DNA from: Brevibacterium picturae
GTDB lineage: Bacteria; Actinomycetota; Actinomycetes; Actinomycetales; Brevibacteriaceae
Length of the DNA: 64,000 nt
NCBI RefSeq assembly: GCF_900105045.1
Contig: NZ_LT629739.1
Location: 1,178,001 to 1,242,000, forward strand
Reading direction: 5' to 3'
Of the stretch, positions 32,251-39,461 are shown in pieces. Made by a program: the position numbers and the translations under genes. The notes under the pieces are model-generated. The model saw only the letters and a list, made by a program, of their open reading frames with translations. It was not told the origin of the DNA and did not search any database. Each line of letters opens with the position of its first letter. The first letter of the stretch is position 1.

Positions 32251-33693
32251 TCACAGCTTCACTGCGACGGTCTTCGTCTGCGTGTACTCGTTGAGGGCTT
32301 CGATGGACTTCTCGCGGCCGTAGCCGGACTTCTTGACCCCGCCGAAGGGCAGCTCCACTCCCCCACCGGCACCGTAGGTGTTGACGAAGATCTGCCCGGC
32401 CTCCACCTCGGCGGCGACTCGATGGGCTCGGGAGAGGTTCTGCGTCCACAGAGCAGAGATCAGGCCGTAGTCGGTGCCGTTGGCCAGGGAGATCGCTTCC
32501 TCCTCATCGCTGAAGGTCATCGCGGCGACGACGGGACCGAAGACCTCCTCCTGCGCGATCGTCGAGCCCGGAGACACGTTGTCCACGAGCGTCGGAGTGA
32601 TGAAGGCGCCACCGGTGAGGTCGTCGGCGAGGCCCTCGGGTCGGGTCCCGCCGGTGATGATCTCGGCGCTGCCGATGTCTGACAGGAATCCTTCGACGCG
32701 GGACTGCTGCTTCGTCGAGATCAGCGGCCCGAGCATCGGGTCCTCGGGGCCGTACCCGATGGTCACCTTCTCCATCGCGGCCGCCAGCTTCTCGACCACC
32801 TCGGCGTGGTTGCTCTGGGCGACGATGAGGCGGGACCCGGCCGAGCAGGTCTGACCGGCGTTCTGGATGATCGAACGGAGCAGGGACGGAATCGCGGCGT
32901 CGACATCGGCGTCGGAGAAGACGATGTTCGCTGATTTTCCGCCGAGTTCGAGCACCGTGGGAATGACCCGGTCGGCGGCGGCGTGGGCGATCTGCGACCC
33001 GGTCTGGGTCGAGCCGACGAAGCCCAGGTGGGCGATGCCCGGGTGGGCTGCCAGCGCCGCACCCGCCTCGGCGCCTAAGCCTGTGACCACGTTGAACGCA
33101 CCTGCGGGGAAACCGACGGAATGGATGAGCTCGGCCAGCCGGACCGTCGAGCGCGGGGTCTCGTCAGCGGGTTTGGCCACGGCGCAGTTGCCGGTCGCCA
33201 GCGAGGTGGCGACGGCGCGGCCGATGAGCTGGAGCGGATAGTTCCAGGCCACGATGTGCCCGGTCACACCGTAGGGTTCGCGTCGCGTGTAGACGTGCAT
33301 GTCCTCGGTCATGGGGATCGCGTGCCCGTAGTAGGACTCGATGGTGTGGCCGTAGAACTCGAAGTAGCGGGCGCAGACATCGACGTCGGCATAGGCCTGG
33401 GTCAGCGGTTTGCCTGTGTCCTCGGACTCGAGGCTGGCCATCTCATCACGGTTGGCCCGAATCACCTCGGCGGTGGTGACCAGCAGTTTCGAGCGCTGCT
33501 CGGTGCTCGAGCGCTTCCACTCCTGCTGTGCCCTCGCCGCTGCCTTGACCGCACGGTCGACCTCATCGGGCCCGCCTCGGGAGACATCGCCGAGGTGGTC
33601 GCCGGTGGCCGGGTCGACGTTGGCGTAGGTGGTCAGTGTGGGGACATGGCGTCCACCGATGAAAGAGGTGGTCTGGGTGATCTGGGCGTTCAT
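32251..33693 (-). CDS. Aldehyde dehydrogenase family protein
   Basis: 480 residues, full-length superfamily member. Motifs: IVAWNYPLQLIGR, FVGSTQTGSQIA, LELGGKSANIVF with the general base Glu, and nucleophile Cys in NAGQTCSAGSR; the C-terminal PFGGVKKSGYGREKS is typical of the betaine/amino-aldehyde group. Substrate cannot be deduced. ATG 33693 has GGAAGG upstream and overlaps the stop of the SCP2-type gene by 4 bases. It is the third gene of the operon starting with the asparaginase. Confidence 0.92.
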   Translation of the reverse strand: MNAQITQTTSFIGGRHVPTLTTYANVDPATGDHLGDVSRGGPDEVDRAVKAAARAQQEWKRSSTEQRSKLLVTTAEVIRANRDEMASLESEDTGKPLTQAYADVDVCARYFEFYGHTIESYYGHAIPMTEDMHVYTRREPYGVTGHIVAWNYPLQLIGRAVATSLATGNCAVAKPADETPRSTVRLAELIHSVGFPAGAFNVVTGLGAEAGAALAAHPGIAHLGFVGSTQTGSQIAHAAADRVIPTVLELGGKSANIVFSDADVDAAIPSLLRSIIQNAGQTCSAGSRLIVAQSNHAEVVEKLAAAMEKVTIGYGPEDPMLGPLISTKQQSRVEGFLSDIGSAEIITGGTRPEGLADDLTGGAFITPTLVDNVSPGSTIAQEEVFGPVVAAMTFSDEEEAISLANGTDYGLISALWTQNLSRAHRVAAEVEAGQIFVNTYGAGGGVELPFGGVKKSGYGREKSIEALNEYTQTKTVAVKL

Positions 33694-34091
33694 CGCCGAC
33701 CTTCCAATTCTGCCGATGTGTACAGGGGAACGAAGTCACTGATGTCGGCGCGGGTGCCGGAGGCGTCGACCAAGCCTTCGGCAAGTGCTGCGGAGAATGC
33801 GGTCTTGCCGGTCACGATCTCCAACCACACCTGCGCCGAGGTTTCCACGACGTTGGGCGGTGTCCCGCGGGTGTGCCGGGGCCCGGGGATGCACTGGGTG
33901 ACGCCGAAGGGCGGGACGCGGACCTCGACGCTGTTGCCCTCTGCCCGCGAAGCGAGCTCTTCGAGTGTGAATCTCACCGCGGTAGCCAGGGTCGACCGGT
34001 CCGCCGGTGCCGCGTCGGCATTCGAATGCGCCGCCCACATCTCGAGGGCGTTGCGGCCCTCGTCGGGGTCGATCCTTCTGCGAATCGCCAT
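33690..34091 (-). CDS. Sterol carrier (SCP2-like) family protein
   Basis: 133 residues, matching a small actinobacterial family annotated as sterol carrier proteins. Key blocks are RRRIDPDEGRNALEMW, VEVRVPPFGVTQCIPGPRHTRGTPPNVVE and WLEIVTGKTAFSAALAEG, followed by ADISDFVPL. This family commonly neighbours purine genes in actinobacteria, as here. Function is unknown; no lipid ligand can be inferred. It is tightly packed: its start overlaps the asparaginase stop by one base and its stop overlaps the ALDH start by four. Confidence 0.82.
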   Translation of the reverse strand: MAIRRRIDPDEGRNALEMWAAHSNADAAPADRSTLATAVRFTLEELASRAEGNSVEVRVPPFGVTQCIPGPRHTRGTPPNVVETSAQVWLEIVTGKTAFSAALAEGLVDASGTRADISDFVPLYTSAELEGRR

Positions 34092-35185
34092 CAGTGACTC
34101 TCCCTCTGCCTGATCTTCGCTATATCTTCACCCACGATGACCCGTCCGACAACCGCCGTCCGCCCCTCGGACTCGGTTCCGCCGGTGACGGGGTCGGTGA
34201 TCGCCTCGATGACCTCGGCGAGGAGTTCCTCGCCGATCTCTGGAATCGCGCCCGCCTTGCGCAGCAGAGTCAGCGCCACGAGTCCCGTCGCCCGGGATGA
34301 TCCGTCGAGGCATTTGACTGCGACCGAGTACCCGGACTTCGTGGACATGACGATGACGCCTTCGGCCCCGCCCTTGGCGAAGACGCCGAGGCGGTCGATG
34401 ACGCTCGTGTTCGGTCTCCCGTGGCCTTCAATCGCCCAGGGTTCGGCGAAAACCGCGTCCACGAGGGTGCGGGCCTCGGACGCATAGGAGGCATAGGGCT
34501 CCGTCGCCGAGGTTGCCGTCGGGTTCTCGTCGCCTGGTGCCTCGACTGCGCTGCCCAGCCGCACCACGCGGCCGATCGCCCGCGCCAGGCCGACGAGGCT
34601 GAGTGCGAACACCGGGGCACCGCAGCCGTCGGTGCCCACGGCCGCCGGCGTCTCGCCGGCGAAGGTTTCGACCACCTCGGCGACCTTCGTCTGCACCGGA
34701 TGAGCGGGATTGAGGTAGCTGTTCGTGTCGGCACCGGAGGCGAGCGCGGCCATGAGGAAGGCTGCGTGCTTGCCGGAGCAGTTGAAGTACAGGGGCGACT
34801 TCGGGTCTGCCTGCAGGCTTCGTCGGAAGGCTCCGTCGGCGGGATGTGCGGAGGGGCATTGCAGGTCGGCGGGGCTGAGACCGACGGATTCGAGCATTCC
34901 GGCGACCGCCTCGGCGTGGCCGGCCTCGCATTTGTGGGATGCGGTGGCAAGCGCCGCCCACGTTCCGGTCACCGCAGCACCCAGATTCATTGCGGCGATG
35001 GCCTGCAGCGGTTTGAGACTGGACCGGGTGAACACGGGGACCTCGGGAGCACCCAGGCTGATCAGCGGTGATCCCTGCGGATCGAGGACGACGGCGGAAC
35101 CGATATGGCGTGATTCGAGAAATCCACTGCGAACGACGGCGGCCAATTCGGCGGCGTCGGCGGAGGCGAATGTGGAACAAGACAC
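34091..35185 (-). CDS. L-asparaginase II-type (PF06089) protein
   Basis: 364 residues. It matches the thermolabile rhizobial-type asparaginase family, which is unrelated to AnsA/AnsB. Blocks include SSLKPLQAIAAM with the active-site Ser-Ser-x-x-Lys, TASHKCEAGHAEAV, the YFNCSGKHAAFL segment containing Cys, TDGCGAPVFALSL and FAKGGAEGVIVM. In this family the Ser-Lys pairs and zinc-binding Cys/Lys form the active site. It hydrolyses asparagine to aspartate and ammonia; aspartate feeds the SAICAR step encoded divergently next door. The GTG at 35185 has no clear Shine-Dalgarno. First gene of a four-gene operon. Confidence 0.88.
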   Translation of the reverse strand: MSCSTFASADAAELAAVVRSGFLESRHIGSAVVLDPQGSPLISLGAPEVPVFTRSSLKPLQAIAAMNLGAAVTGTWAALATASHKCEAGHAEAVAGMLESVGLSPADLQCPSAHPADGAFRRSLQADPKSPLYFNCSGKHAAFLMAALASGADTNSYLNPAHPVQTKVAEVVETFAGETPAAVGTDGCGAPVFALSLVGLARAIGRVVRLGSAVEAPGDENPTATSATEPYASYASEARTLVDAVFAEPWAIEGHGRPNTSVIDRLGVFAKGGAEGVIVMSTKSGYSVAVKCLDGSSRATGLVALTLLRKAGAIPEIGEELLAEVIEAITDPVTGGTESEGRTAVVGRVIVGEDIAKIRQRESH

Positions 35186-35218
35186 GCAGTCAAGCCTACG
35201 ACCTTATAGGCTGGTGGT
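35186..35218. promoter_or_regulatory. Compact bidirectional promoter between asparaginase and purD-purC
   Basis: Only 33 bp separate the two divergent start codons. The near-palindrome CCTTATAGG lies at 35202-35210. It reads TATAGG toward purD-purC (eight bases before its GTG) and TATAAG toward the asparaginase gene (17 bases before its GTG). One shared -10 region could serve both genes, giving a near-leaderless purD-purC mRNA. No convincing -35 box is visible on either side. Confidence 0.4.
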
Positions 35219-37582
35219 GTGAAGGTTCTTGTTATCGGTTCGGGCTCCCGCGAACACGCCCTCGTCCTTGCTCTCAGTCGCGACCCTCAGGTCGACGCCG
35301 TCATCGCCGCGCCCGGCAACCCCGGAATTGCCGCGATCGCGCACACCGAAGCCGTGGATATGAACGATTCCGCAGCGGTCACTGCGCTGGCGGAGACGCT
35401 CGACGTCGACCTCGTCGTCATCGGCCCCGAGGCGCCGCTGGTCGCCGGTGTCGGAGACGCCCTCCGGCAGGCCTCGTTCCCGGTCTTCGGTCCCAGCGCC
35501 GAGGCCGCGGCCCTCGAAGGGTCGAAGGCCTTTGCGAAAGAGGTCATGGAGTCCTCGAATGTGCCCACCGCACGCGCCGTGGTCGCCTACACCCCCGACG
35601 AGGCCGCCGCTGCCCTCGACGACTTCGGTGCCCCCTACGTGGTCAAGGCCGATGGCCTGGCCGCCGGCAAGGGAGTCGTCGTGACCTCCGACCGGGCCGA
35701 GGCGCTGACCCACGCCAGCTCCTGCCTCGAGGTCTCAGACCGTGTCGTCATCGAGGACTACCTCGACGGCCCCGAGGTCTCCCTCTTCGTCCTCTGCGAC
35801 GGGCAGCACACCCTTCCCCTGGCTCCCGCCCAGGACTTCAAGCGCATCGGCGACGGGGACACGGGGCCCAACACCGGTGGCATGGGCGCCTACTCGCCGT
35901 TGCCCTGGATCCCGGCCGGCACCGTCGATGAGATCGTGGACACCGTCGCCCAGCCGGTCGTCGATGAGATGACCCGCCGCGGCACCCCCTTCGTCGGCCT
36001 CCTCTACTGCGGACTCGCCCTGACCTCGAAGGGCCTGCGGGTCGTGGAATTCAATGTGCGCTTCGGTGACCCCGAAACCCAGTCCGTTCTCGCCCGTCTG
36101 CGCAGCCCGCTGGGACAGACCATGCTCGCCGCTGCCGAGGGTCGCCTCGACGAGGTCGGCGAACTCGAGTGGGATCCGCGCACCTCGGTGACCGTGGTCA
36201 TGGCCGCCGAGAACTACCCGGGCACTCCCCGCACCGGCGACATCATCCGCGGCCTCAACACGGCCGACGGGCTCGAGGACGTCCACATCCTCCACGCCGG
36301 GACCGCCCGGGCCACAGACACGGGTGCCGGGTTCGCTCCGGAGGACACCGTCATCTCCGAGGACGTCGCCGAGACCGGAGACATCGTCACCGCCGGCGGC
36401 CGCGTGCTCTCCATCGTCTCGCTGGGCTCGGGCCTCGACGAGGCAAGGGCCAAGGCCTATGCCGCTGCGACCGAGGTCAAATGGGACGGTGAACAGCATA
36501 GGACCGACATCGCCGAGGTGGCTGCTCGCGGTCAGATCACCGTCGCCGACATCTACCCGGCCCCTGATGGTGCGGCCGCTGCGGCGTCGGGAGGGGCGGC
36601 GTCGGGGGATGCCGTGTCGGGGGACGAGCCGACGCTGCCGTTCCCCGTCGAGGAACCGGCACCGAACTCGAACGTCTCAGCGGGACACGATTCCACGGCT
36701 CCCGGGCTCCCGGGCTGGAAGCATGTGTACTCCGGCAAGGTCCGCGACCTCTACATCCCCGGCGATGCCGACGACGCAGCCTCGGCCGAGCAGCTGCTCA
36801 TGGTCGCCTCCGACCGCATCTCCGCCTATGACTGGGTCCTCGATTCCGAGATACCCGACAAGGGCAAGGTCCTGACCGGCTTGAGTCTGTGGTGGTTCGA
36901 CCAGCTCTCCGAGGTCATCGGCAACCACGTCATCAGCTCCGACGTCCCTGAGGCCGTGGCCGGCCGCGGCCTCATCGTGAAGAACCTGTCGATGCTGCCC
37001 ATCGAGTGCGTGGCACGCGGCTATCTCACCGGCTCCGGCATGGCCGACTACAAAGCCACCGGCTCCGTGTGCGGAATCCAGCTGCCGGCAGGTCTCATCG
37101 AAGCCGACCGTCTGGAACCTGCGATCTTCACGCCGGCGACCAAGGCCGAGCTGGGAGACCACGACGAGAACGTCAGCTTTGCCCAGATCACGGAGACCAT
37201 CGGCACCGAGGCGGCTGAGAAGGCCCGTGACCTGACTATCGAGATCTACCAGCGGGCCGAGGCCATCGCCCGTGAGCGCGGCATCATCCTCGCCGACACG
37301 AAGTTCGAGTTCGGGACGCTGCCCGATGGGACGATGGTCCTCGGCGACGAAGTGCTGACCCCGGATTCGTCACGCTTCTGGGACGCGGCGTCCTACGAAT
37401 CGGGTCAGCCGCAGGCGAGCTTCGACAAGCAGTTCGTCCGCGATTGGCTGACTGGTGAGTCCGGCTGGGACAAGTCCTCGGACACTCCCCCGCCAGCCCT
37501 GCCCGCCGAGGTGATCGAAAAGACCCGCGCCCGCTACATCGAGGCCTTCGAGAAGCTCACCGGCCAGAAGTTCCCCGGCTAA
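35219..37582 (+). CDS. Bifunctional PurD-PurC fusion: GAR synthetase plus SAICAR synthetase
   Basis: 787 residues in one frame. Residues 1 to about 443 are GAR synthetase (PurD): IGSGSREHAL, ATP-grasp VVKADGLAAGKGVVV, GPNTGGMGAYSP and EFNVRFGDPETQ. A linker of about 55 residues rich in Ala, Gly, Ser, Pro and Glu follows, without any Met. From about 499 the SAICAR synthetase (PurC) domain runs to the end: YSGKVRDLYI, VASDRISAYDWVL, IECVARGYLTGSGMADY, ADTKFEFG and DSSRFWDAASY. The protein would perform steps two and eight (in the count where SAICAR formation is step eight) of purine synthesis. Both active sites look intact. The GTG start lacks a strong ribosome-binding site. Confidence 0.93.
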   Translation: MKVLVIGSGSREHALVLALSRDPQVDAVIAAPGNPGIAAIAHTEAVDMNDSAAVTALAETLDVDLVVIGPEAPLVAGVGDALRQASFPVFGPSAEAAALEGSKAFAKEVMESSNVPTARAVVAYTPDEAAAALDDFGAPYVVKADGLAAGKGVVVTSDRAEALTHASSCLEVSDRVVIEDYLDGPEVSLFVLCDGQHTLPLAPAQDFKRIGDGDTGPNTGGMGAYSPLPWIPAGTVDEIVDTVAQPVVDEMTRRGTPFVGLLYCGLALTSKGLRVVEFNVRFGDPETQSVLARLRSPLGQTMLAAAEGRLDEVGELEWDPRTSVTVVMAAENYPGTPRTGDIIRGLNTADGLEDVHILHAGTARATDTGAGFAPEDTVISEDVAETGDIVTAGGRVLSIVSLGSGLDEARAKAYAAATEVKWDGEQHRTDIAEVAARGQITVADIYPAPDGAAAAASGGAASGDAVSGDEPTLPFPVEEPAPNSNVSAGHDSTAPGLPGWKHVYSGKVRDLYIPGDADDAASAEQLLMVASDRISAYDWVLDSEIPDKGKVLTGLSLWWFDQLSEVIGNHVISSDVPEAVAGRGLIVKNLSMLPIECVARGYLTGSGMADYKATGSVCGIQLPAGLIEADRLEPAIFTPATKAELGDHDENVSFAQITETIGTEAAEKARDLTIEIYQRAEAIARERGIILADTKFEFGTLPDGTMVLGDEVLTPDSSRFWDAASYESGQPQASFDKQFVRDWLTGESGWDKSSDTPPPALPAEVIEKTRARYIEAFEKLTGQKFPG

Positions 37583-37964
37583 TGAGGCCAATCACAGCCT
37601 GACCTCGTCAGCTCAGCAACACTGCTTCACCGAAACAACGCCGCACCGCCGACACCATTGCGCACGCATGTGTGTCCCGGCGGTGCGGCGTTGTTTCGGT
37701 GCCCATTTGCGCTGGGGTGCTGTGTCACCCACCCAACTTGCTGTATACCAGCCACACGTTCCCGCCCGCGAAATACGCACAGATCAACACTGAATCAGCG
37801 GTCCTCACAATCCTGCACGAGTCTTTCTCAGCGTCAGTTCGTCTCACGCAACGAAATCGGTGGAAACCACTTACTGGTTCCGCTAGGGTGTGGTGAACAG
37901 TGACCGGCGACACATCATGTCGCACAAGCCACACACTGACGTGCAACTCGGTTGGAAGTGACAT
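37583..37964. other. Intergenic region after purD-purC with a long hairpin
   Basis: 382 bp without a gene. A perfect 23-bp inverted repeat, arms 37628-37650 and 37679-37701, encloses a 28-base loop whose ends (GACAC and GTGTC) can extend the stem. It is probably the purD-purC terminator. The following 260 bp should hold the promoter of the polyamine locus. GGAAGTGACAT directly precedes the aldehyde dehydrogenase ATG. Confidence 0.6.
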
Positions 37965-39461
37965 ATGCATTACTGGAACGGCACCTATTACGAAGGCAGC
38001 GGCGAGACCTTCACCCTCGTCAATCCCGCAACTGGGGAGCGAACCGGAGAGTACACGCTCGCGAACGCCGCCGACGTCAACGACGCAGTCGCCTCGGCGA
38101 AGGCCGCCTACCCCGCCTTCAAAGCCTTGACTCCCGGCGAGCGCGCGGAGCTGATGCTGGCACTGGCAACGCAGCTCGAGGCTCGTGCCGATGAGCTCGC
38201 CGAACTCGAATCGCTGCAGACCGGCAAGTCCATCCGCCTGGCCAAGGAATTCGACGTGCCCGGCTCGATCGACAATGCGAAGTTCTTCGCCGGTTCCGCC
38301 CGGCAGCTCACCGGCCTGGCCGCCGGAACCTACTGGGAGAAGTCGACGTCGATGACCCGGCGCGAACCCCTCGGCGTCGTCGGCTCGATCGCACCATGGA
38401 ACTACCCGCTGCAGATGGCCGCGTGGAAGGTCTTCCCCGCCGTCGCAGCCGGCAACACCATCGTGCTCAAGACCTCAGAGATGACTCCCGGGACCTCGCT
38501 GATCCTCGCCGAGGCGGCCACGGCAGCAGGCTTCGCCCCCGGTGTCATCAACGTCATCGCCGGTGACGGCCTTGAAGCAGGCGAAGCACTCATCACCCAC
38601 CCGGACGTGGTGATGTCCTCGTTCACCGGGTCGACGAAGGTTGGACGTCGCATCATGGAACTCGCCTCGGCCAAGGGCTCCCGCGTCCACCTCGAGCTCG
38701 GCGGCAAGGCACCGCTCGTGGTCTTCGACGACGCCGACATCGAGGCCGCCGCACGCGGTGCCGTCGCCGGGTCGCTCATCAACTCCGGCCAGGACTGCAC
38801 CGCGGCCACCCGGGCCATCGTCGCCTGCGAACACTTCGAGGCCTTCACCGACCGGGTCACCGAACTCATGAACGGCGTCCGCGTCGGCACCCCGACCGAT
38901 CCAGCCACAGACATGGGATCCCTGATCTCACTGACCCACCGCTCACGGGTTGCCGCCATGGTCGACCGCGCCCGCGAAGCCGGGGCCACGATCCACTGCG
39001 GAGGTGAGATCCCGACGTCGAACCACCTCGGCGAGGCTCTGCCCGGAGACACCGAGACAACGGCGTACTACGCGCCGACGCTCATCAGCGGAATCGACAC
39101 CGACTCCGAGGTGTGGCGCGAGGAGATCTTCGGTCCCGTTCTCGTCGCTCTCGCCTTCGACACCGATGATGAGGCGATCGAATTGGCCAACGACACCCCC
39201 TACGGGCTGGCGGCGAGCGCCTGGACGACGACCACGAACCGGACGCTGCGTGCCGCTGCCGACATCGAGGCCGGATGCGTGTGGATCAACGAACACATCC
39301 CGATTGTCTCCGATATGCCCCACGGCGGATACAAGGCCTCCGGGTTCGGCAAGGACATGAGCCAGTACTCGTTCGATGAGTACACGCAGGTCAAGCACGT
39401 GTTCATCGATCAGCATGAGGACCCGCACCACGAATGGCAGGACACCGTCTTCACGTCCTGA
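37965..39461 (+). CDS. Aldehyde dehydrogenase, probable gamma-aminobutyraldehyde/betaine-aldehyde type
   Basis: 498 residues. Motifs: SIAPWNYPLQMAAWK, FTGSTKVGRRI, HLELGGKAPLVVF (general base Glu) and nucleophile Cys in NSGQDCTAATR. The N-terminus MHYWNGTYYEGSGE and FEHIPIVSDMPHGG-like end (NEHIPIVSDMPHGGYK) are typical of the group that oxidises gamma-aminobutyraldehyde from putrescine. It is the first gene of a plus-strand locus with a spermidine/putrescine-type ABC importer, which supports this role. Betaine aldehyde is an alternative substrate. The start is supported by GGAAGTG upstream. Confidence 0.88.
   Translation: MHYWNGTYYEGSGETFTLVNPATGERTGEYTLANAADVNDAVASAKAAYPAFKALTPGERAELMLALATQLEARADELAELESLQTGKSIRLAKEFDVPGSIDNAKFFAGSARQLTGLAAGTYWEKSTSMTRREPLGVVGSIAPWNYPLQMAAWKVFPAVAAGNTIVLKTSEMTPGTSLILAEAATAAGFAPGVINVIAGDGLEAGEALITHPDVVMSSFTGSTKVGRRIMELASAKGSRVHLELGGKAPLVVFDDADIEAAARGAVAGSLINSGQDCTAATRAIVACEHFEAFTDRVTELMNGVRVGTPTDPATDMGSLISLTHRSRVAAMVDRAREAGATIHCGGEIPTSNHLGEALPGDTETTAYYAPTLISGIDTDSEVWREEIFGPVLVALAFDTDDEAIELANDTPYGLAASAWTTTTNRTLRAAADIEAGCVWINEHIPIVSDMPHGGYKASGFGKDMSQYSFDEYTQVKHVFIDQHEDPHHEWQDTVFTS

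Follow-up and report, generated by a model that had tools for sequence, protein, structure and literature searches.

Fusions among purine biosynthesis enzymes

Several purine enzymes are known to share a polypeptide with another enzyme of the pathway. According to the accessible text of one paper, a single polypeptide combines PurD with other enzymes in the vertebrate trifunctional GART (PurD, PurM and PurN) and in yeast PurDM, and PurC is joined to AIR carboxylase in PAICS (PMC10912719). The partners of PurD in GART and PurDM act at steps 3 and 5, and the partner of PurC in PAICS acts at the preceding step, with PurD absent. Closer to the gene described here is the purCD gene of Francisella, which the available portions of three papers identify as FTT_0894/FTL_0396 (PMC2933595, PMC3796476, PMC3660459) and a fourth names in F. 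novicida as FTN_0420, 'SAICAR synthetase/phosphoribosylamine-glycine ligase' (PMC7862118). Excerpts of other papers give PurCD as one enzyme (PMC13192272) or mention purCD mutants (PMC2675058, PMC5963219). The name purCD by itself is weak evidence of a fusion, because in the parts of the literature at hand a purMCD locus is said to encode three enzymes (PMC2429968) and a paper on Vibrio labels purC as purCD (PMC10930458).

No PurD-PurC fusion appears among the archaeal purine fusions in the accessible part of a dedicated review (PMC3261824), and none of five terms related to fusions occurs in a review of nucleotide-metabolism genomics. In the open-access titles, abstract openings and text passages that we searched, there was no description of a PurD-first fusion or of its repeated origin from neighbouring genes.

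The window analysed here, a stretch of 64,000 nucleotides from Brevibacterium picturae, contains a single gene in which PurD is followed by PurC. Like Francisella purCD it is one locus with both activities, but the Francisella names place PurC first, the reverse of the order in the window, insofar as order and fusion can be read from gene names in the excerpts available. Francisella also belongs to a distant phylum. The fused clade of the window sits in a genus and family that also include split relatives. PurD here shares its polypeptide with PurC, much as it does with other enzymes in GART and PurDM, and as in PAICS, PurC is joined to another purine enzyme. The split purD and purC genes of other Micrococcales, for example Paeniglutamicibacter (L007, L008) and Demequina (L012, L014), match the window in gene order, strand and the homologous enzymes that they encode, but in both of these genera a stop codon separates the two, and none does so in the window.

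A single gene encodes PurD and PurC

The gene and its parts are as follows.

35219-37582, + strand: fused purD-purC gene, from GTG at 35219 to TAA, 787 codons, without internal stops
35219-36526, + strand: PurD (GAR synthetase) domain, residues 1-436, from Pfam, TIGR00877 and solved-chain matches
36527-36706, + strand: interdomain linker, residues 437-496, from translation, composition, pLDDT and start-codon scan
36707-37579, + strand: PurC (SAICAR synthetase) domain, residues 497-787, from Pfam, NF010568 and the match to 6yvq
37580-37582, + strand: TAA stop of the fused gene, from reading the frame

The original prediction of a single PurD-PurC polypeptide of about 80 kDa was borne out by this uninterrupted frame, which passed the domain models for both enzymes and translates to a protein of 787 amino acids with a computed mass of 82.3 kDa. 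Pfam placed GARS_N at residues 2-100, GARS_A at 101-287, GARS_C at 323-433 and SAICAR_synt at 503-754. The purD model TIGR00877 scored 463.6 bits against the whole protein and 469 against the PurD domain alone (cut-off 288), and the PurC model NF010568 scored 409 bits across residues 497-785 (cut-off 251). The PurD half therefore has the N, ATP-grasp and C domains together with an above-cut-off score, and the PurC half has a full-length NF010568 match above its cut-off. The PurD half aligns end to end with the solved PurD chains 5vev and 1gso (about 1e-100) and the PurC half with the solved PurC 6yvq (3.3e-104); none of the 43 distinct matched chains spans both domains.

PurC proteins carry conserved DxKxEFG and PxE..ARGYLTGS stretches as signatures. 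In the PurC half, DTKFEFG (693-699) and PIECVARGYLTGS were both found, aligning with solved PurC chains, and across 30 fused proteins the former was unchanged except for one column. RFGDPETQ (281-288) of the PurD half was unchanged across the same number. The original prediction was right in that the family motifs of both enzymes are intact; the two halves look like ordinary enzymes and, judged by their sequences, would both be expected to be fully active.

The genome (4.44 Mb, one contig) gave one match each to SAICAR_synt and GARS_N, both of them the fused gene, so that by the profile searches run this gene must supply steps 2 and 7 of the pathway, which are non-consecutive and as distant as had been stated. 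A second copy of purD or purC was sought in the genome searches and none was found. The other PurD-like match (L002), with 29% identity across residues 66-283 and situated within a long frame, is probably a different ATP-grasp enzyme.

Fused and split genes in Brevibacterium and its relatives

The family search covered 60 genomes, 57 from Brevibacterium and three from its sister genus. Junctions could be read in all 57 Brevibacterium genomes, of which 48 are fused and nine split (L096, L113, L115, L116, L121, L122, L126, L127 and L133), and the three sister-genus genomes (L139-L141) are all split. Named loci closest to the fused protein were mostly Brevibacterium (L003-L006, L011). One genome (L138) was scored as fused because its frame passes through the linker into PurC before meeting a run of N, and it was kept out of the linker statistics, which thus cover 47 of the 48. 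Two others, L111 with a frame break within PurD and L117 with a contig edge within PurC, were scored as fused at the junction. The frame change in L111 (G033, a 280-contig assembly) leaves two overlapping PurD matches and reflects either sequencing error or decay.

Five groups of the order beyond the genus also showed the fused state: Nesterenkonia and relatives (L010, L147, L158-L161), g225 (L153-L156), g219 (L157), g57 (L191, L193), and g222 plus an Arthrobacter MAG (L152, L036). The pairing had been suspected of being non-standard, a suspicion weakened both by this spread of the D-C order within and beyond the genus and by the one-gene PurC/PurD product named in the available Francisella literature. 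The samples comprised 297 genomes of the order, 394 of the class and 245 of the family of G126, and the fusion counts outside the genus are lower bounds. Among the matches listed, full-length ones free of stops came from at least 11 of the 245 genomes in the family sample; in the class sample they came from two genomes alone, that of the window and G126. In 60 further stretches, all ten full-length stop-free matches were fused (L152-L161). Long open frames were also considered as possible additional fusions and rejected, all 26 stretches chosen for a long frame being split (L162-L187). Fourteen stretches chosen elsewhere (L188-L201) included the two g57 fusions, eight split pairs and four stretches without purC, and another ten (L202-L211) were all split. 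In a plasmid collection three records cover at least 80% of the query; two are from Saprospira and list separate genes, and the third is from Nonomuraea.

In a quick tree built from 152 PurD+PurC rows, 29 of them fused, the fused state required a minimum of eight changes. Incomplete rows (L117, L025, L032, L033, L035, L038, L045 and L079) were removed from this wide tree, and duplicate or partial ones (L003-L006, L011, L016, L046, L066, L073, L081 and L082) did not enter it; 23 of the 57 genus rows were named, and 22 were used once L117 had been dropped. Within the genus tree three changes were most parsimonious. Forcing all fused rows of the genus into one clade cost 10.95 log units (AU p 0.27), and grouping the two smaller fused clades together was likewise not rejected (p 0.25). 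A single origin in the genus is thus not rejected and would bring the overall number to about six. The fusions of the separate groups appear to be independent. In the Micrococcales loci examined, purD and purC are often, but not always, adjacent on the same strand; in L189, for example, the distance is 909 nt. They lie 1.4-1.6 kb apart in 15 of 82 loci, nearly all from other Actinobacteria, and in the one such interval examined with profiles (L053) the intervening gene is purB.

On the evidence of these sequences, the PurD-PurC fusion of the window is confirmed as genuine, functional-looking and recurrent in the order.

The linker

Taken from the domain edges, the linker has about 60 residues (437-496) and is rich in Ala, Pro, Gly and Ser, with Met absent from residues 430-500; the earlier description of a Met-free linker of about 55 residues was a fair one. 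An AlphaFold model made with 30 fused sequences had a mean pLDDT of 85 and a pTM of 0.57, with two confident domains. Residues 450-491 fell below a pLDDT of 50, with blocks of 32-37 across about 451-490, as did short PurD stretches at 148-150, 210-219, 370-374 and 376-379. Linker residues 450-491 are accordingly predicted to be disordered, and the model can be read as two folded domains whose mutual placement is not fixed.

Linkers of the 47 measured fused genomes of the genus range from 19 to 81 amino acids (median 29, window 60) and consist of 28% Ala, 13% Pro, 10% Gly and 9% Ser. The 37 linkers of the main fused clade have 19 lengths and the eight of a smaller clade have seven, every one a multiple of 3, among rows that are related to one another. 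Such frame-preserving length changes point to a linker that is translated. The longest linker (L093, 81 aa) contains a Ser/Ala/Pro/Gly-rich unit repeated near-exactly, which suggests that it grew through duplication.

Transcription and translation signals

Two features flank the gene.

35207-35212, + strand: TAGGCT (TANNNT box), candidate -10 element for leaderless purDC transcription, with its end 6 nt upstream of the GTG
37628-37701, no strand assigned: perfect inverted repeat, arms of 24 nt separated by 26 nt, 3' of the fused gene

A TANNNT box lies 6-8 nt ahead of the purD start in all 60 genomes (L001, L083-L141), fused and split alike, and as a control the motif occurred in at most two of the 60 in every one of eleven intervals farther upstream. 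No Shine-Dalgarno match was found ahead of purD in any of the 60. In L111 and L137 the purD start used for these upstream counts was reassigned by means of the conserved start sequence. A TANNNT box just ahead of the start, with no Shine-Dalgarno sequence, is the pattern of leaderless actinobacterial mRNAs, and the purDC message is probably leaderless with a conserved start. A sigma-70 consensus scan of 34900-38000 returned no promoter. Divergent from purDC is an open frame at 34091-35185 (- strand), with the two starts 33 bases apart; it had no NCBIfam match at 1e-20, and to the eye it resembles L-asparaginase II. Its 5' end would contain or adjoin the purDC promoter.

No terminator with a stem, short loop and T run was found on the + strand of 34900-38000. 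The inverted repeat, which has no T run, is possibly the transcript end, and a 21-nt part of its arm has no other match in the genome within 3 mismatches. Aldehyde dehydrogenase genes lie on both sides, at 32251-33693 (- strand) and 37965-39461 (+ strand); the latter passed the cut-off of the aminobutyraldehyde dehydrogenase subfamily, and the former passed none of the 25 families listed.

In the split genomes PurC has its own start. All nine split Brevibacterium have an ATG preceded by a Shine-Dalgarno match of 5-7 nt, and three have this ATG overlapping the stop codon of purD as ATGA. The three sister-genus genomes have a GTG that overlaps the stop as GTGA, and in one of these, L140, the PurC GTG has no Shine-Dalgarno match.

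Origin of the fusion

We think it very probable that the bifunctional PurD-PurC arose by loss of the stop between co-directional neighbours, giving independent tethered domains with 1:1 output. The starting point would have been the arrangement of the split relatives, in which purC has a start codon to itself that in some cases overlaps the stop of purD; in the lineage of the window this ATG would have been lost together with the stop and the internal ribosome-binding site. The stop would have been lost repeatedly, each time between adjacent, co-translated purD and purC. A single, probably leaderless GTG would then drive both enzymes, fixing their ratio at 1:1, and the domains, joined by a flexible linker that changes quickly, would fold independently and catalyse steps 2 and 7 each on its own. 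Stop loss at the junction of the two genes accounts for the distribution with no need of channelling, which we infer to be absent. Co-regulation, one of two possible benefits put forward in the original prediction, draws indirect support, and no more than that, from the one start site and the lost internal ribosome-binding site; the other, a purinosome-like role, is hypothetical.

The repeated fixation of the fusion could reflect selection for tethering and not mutational opportunity. One proposal of this kind, which we regard as unlikely, is that tethering PurD and PurC builds a bacterial purine metabolon, with channelling or local concentration acting beyond fixed stoichiometry. It would fit the recurrence of the fused state in several groups and its persistence across most of the genus. 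In the available text of a split-YFP study in E. coli, PurD is named as having high interaction propensity, and a figure legend gives PurC a p value of 0.0076, for an effect that may point either way (PMC12583656); PurF-PurD channelling is kinetically supported in the accessible part of a paper cited above, which also relates that attempts to find a stable complex of PurF and PurD were unsuccessful (PMC10912719). By analogy, the E. coli PurD data would keep a metabolon among the possible readings. Yet steps 2 and 7 have no intermediate in common, a predicted disordered linker that varies from 19 to 81 aa is unlike a positioned interface, and nine of the 57 Brevibacterium genomes live without the fusion. 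We are equally doubtful of the wider proposition that tethering has been repeatedly favoured in Micrococcales, through up to eight independent fusions, and that an as yet unrecognised bacterial purine metabolon depends on a fixed stoichiometry or on co-localisation of PurD and PurC.

It is more improbable still that the open frame is real and yet PurD and PurC end up as separate proteins, because translation also starts at an in-frame GTG or because the linker is cleaved. In 36 of the 47 fused genomes, one or more in-frame start codons (ATG, GTG or TTG, mostly GTG) fall in the interval from PurD residue 436 to PurC residue 5, and the linker is long, exposed and predicted to be disordered. A Shine-Dalgarno match of at least 4 nt accompanies such a codon in or near the linker in six of the 47, however, against matches of at least 5 nt in all nine split genomes, and the frame stays open throughout 19 linker lengths. 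The window linker has an in-frame GTG at residue 466 without a Shine-Dalgarno match, and no in-frame start with a 4-nt match was found in it. As PurC of L140 starts without such a match, its lack does not preclude internal initiation in the window, and weak internal initiation is possible in the fused genomes.

That the genes are two normal ones, with the stop or frameshift dividing them masked by a sequencing or assembly error, can be dismissed as having a negligible chance: few errors would be needed, given that in three of the nine split pairs (L096, L115, L121) purC shares the frame of purD and a stop separates the two, but the window genome is a single contig of 99.99% completeness, and the frame is open in 47 further genomes of the genus and so is no sequencing artefact.

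Implications

Because purine fusions are known and a PurC/PurD gene has already been named in Francisella, the enzyme itself is no great surprise, and a recurrent fusion of ordinary enzymes, a known kind of purine fusion, is of modest interest. What appears to be new, as far as the open-access literature searched here shows, is the PurD-first order together with its apparently repeated origin from an adjacent pair within one bacterial order. For annotation, the locus is a warning that a single gene here covers two pathway steps. The split relatives provide built-in controls for a recurrent fusion, and the question of whether it is a cost-free accident or brings a benefit from the linked production of two non-consecutive enzymes becomes testable. 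If tethering has in fact been favoured, the recurrent fusions would amount to a natural replicate experiment on PurD:PurC stoichiometry or co-localisation.
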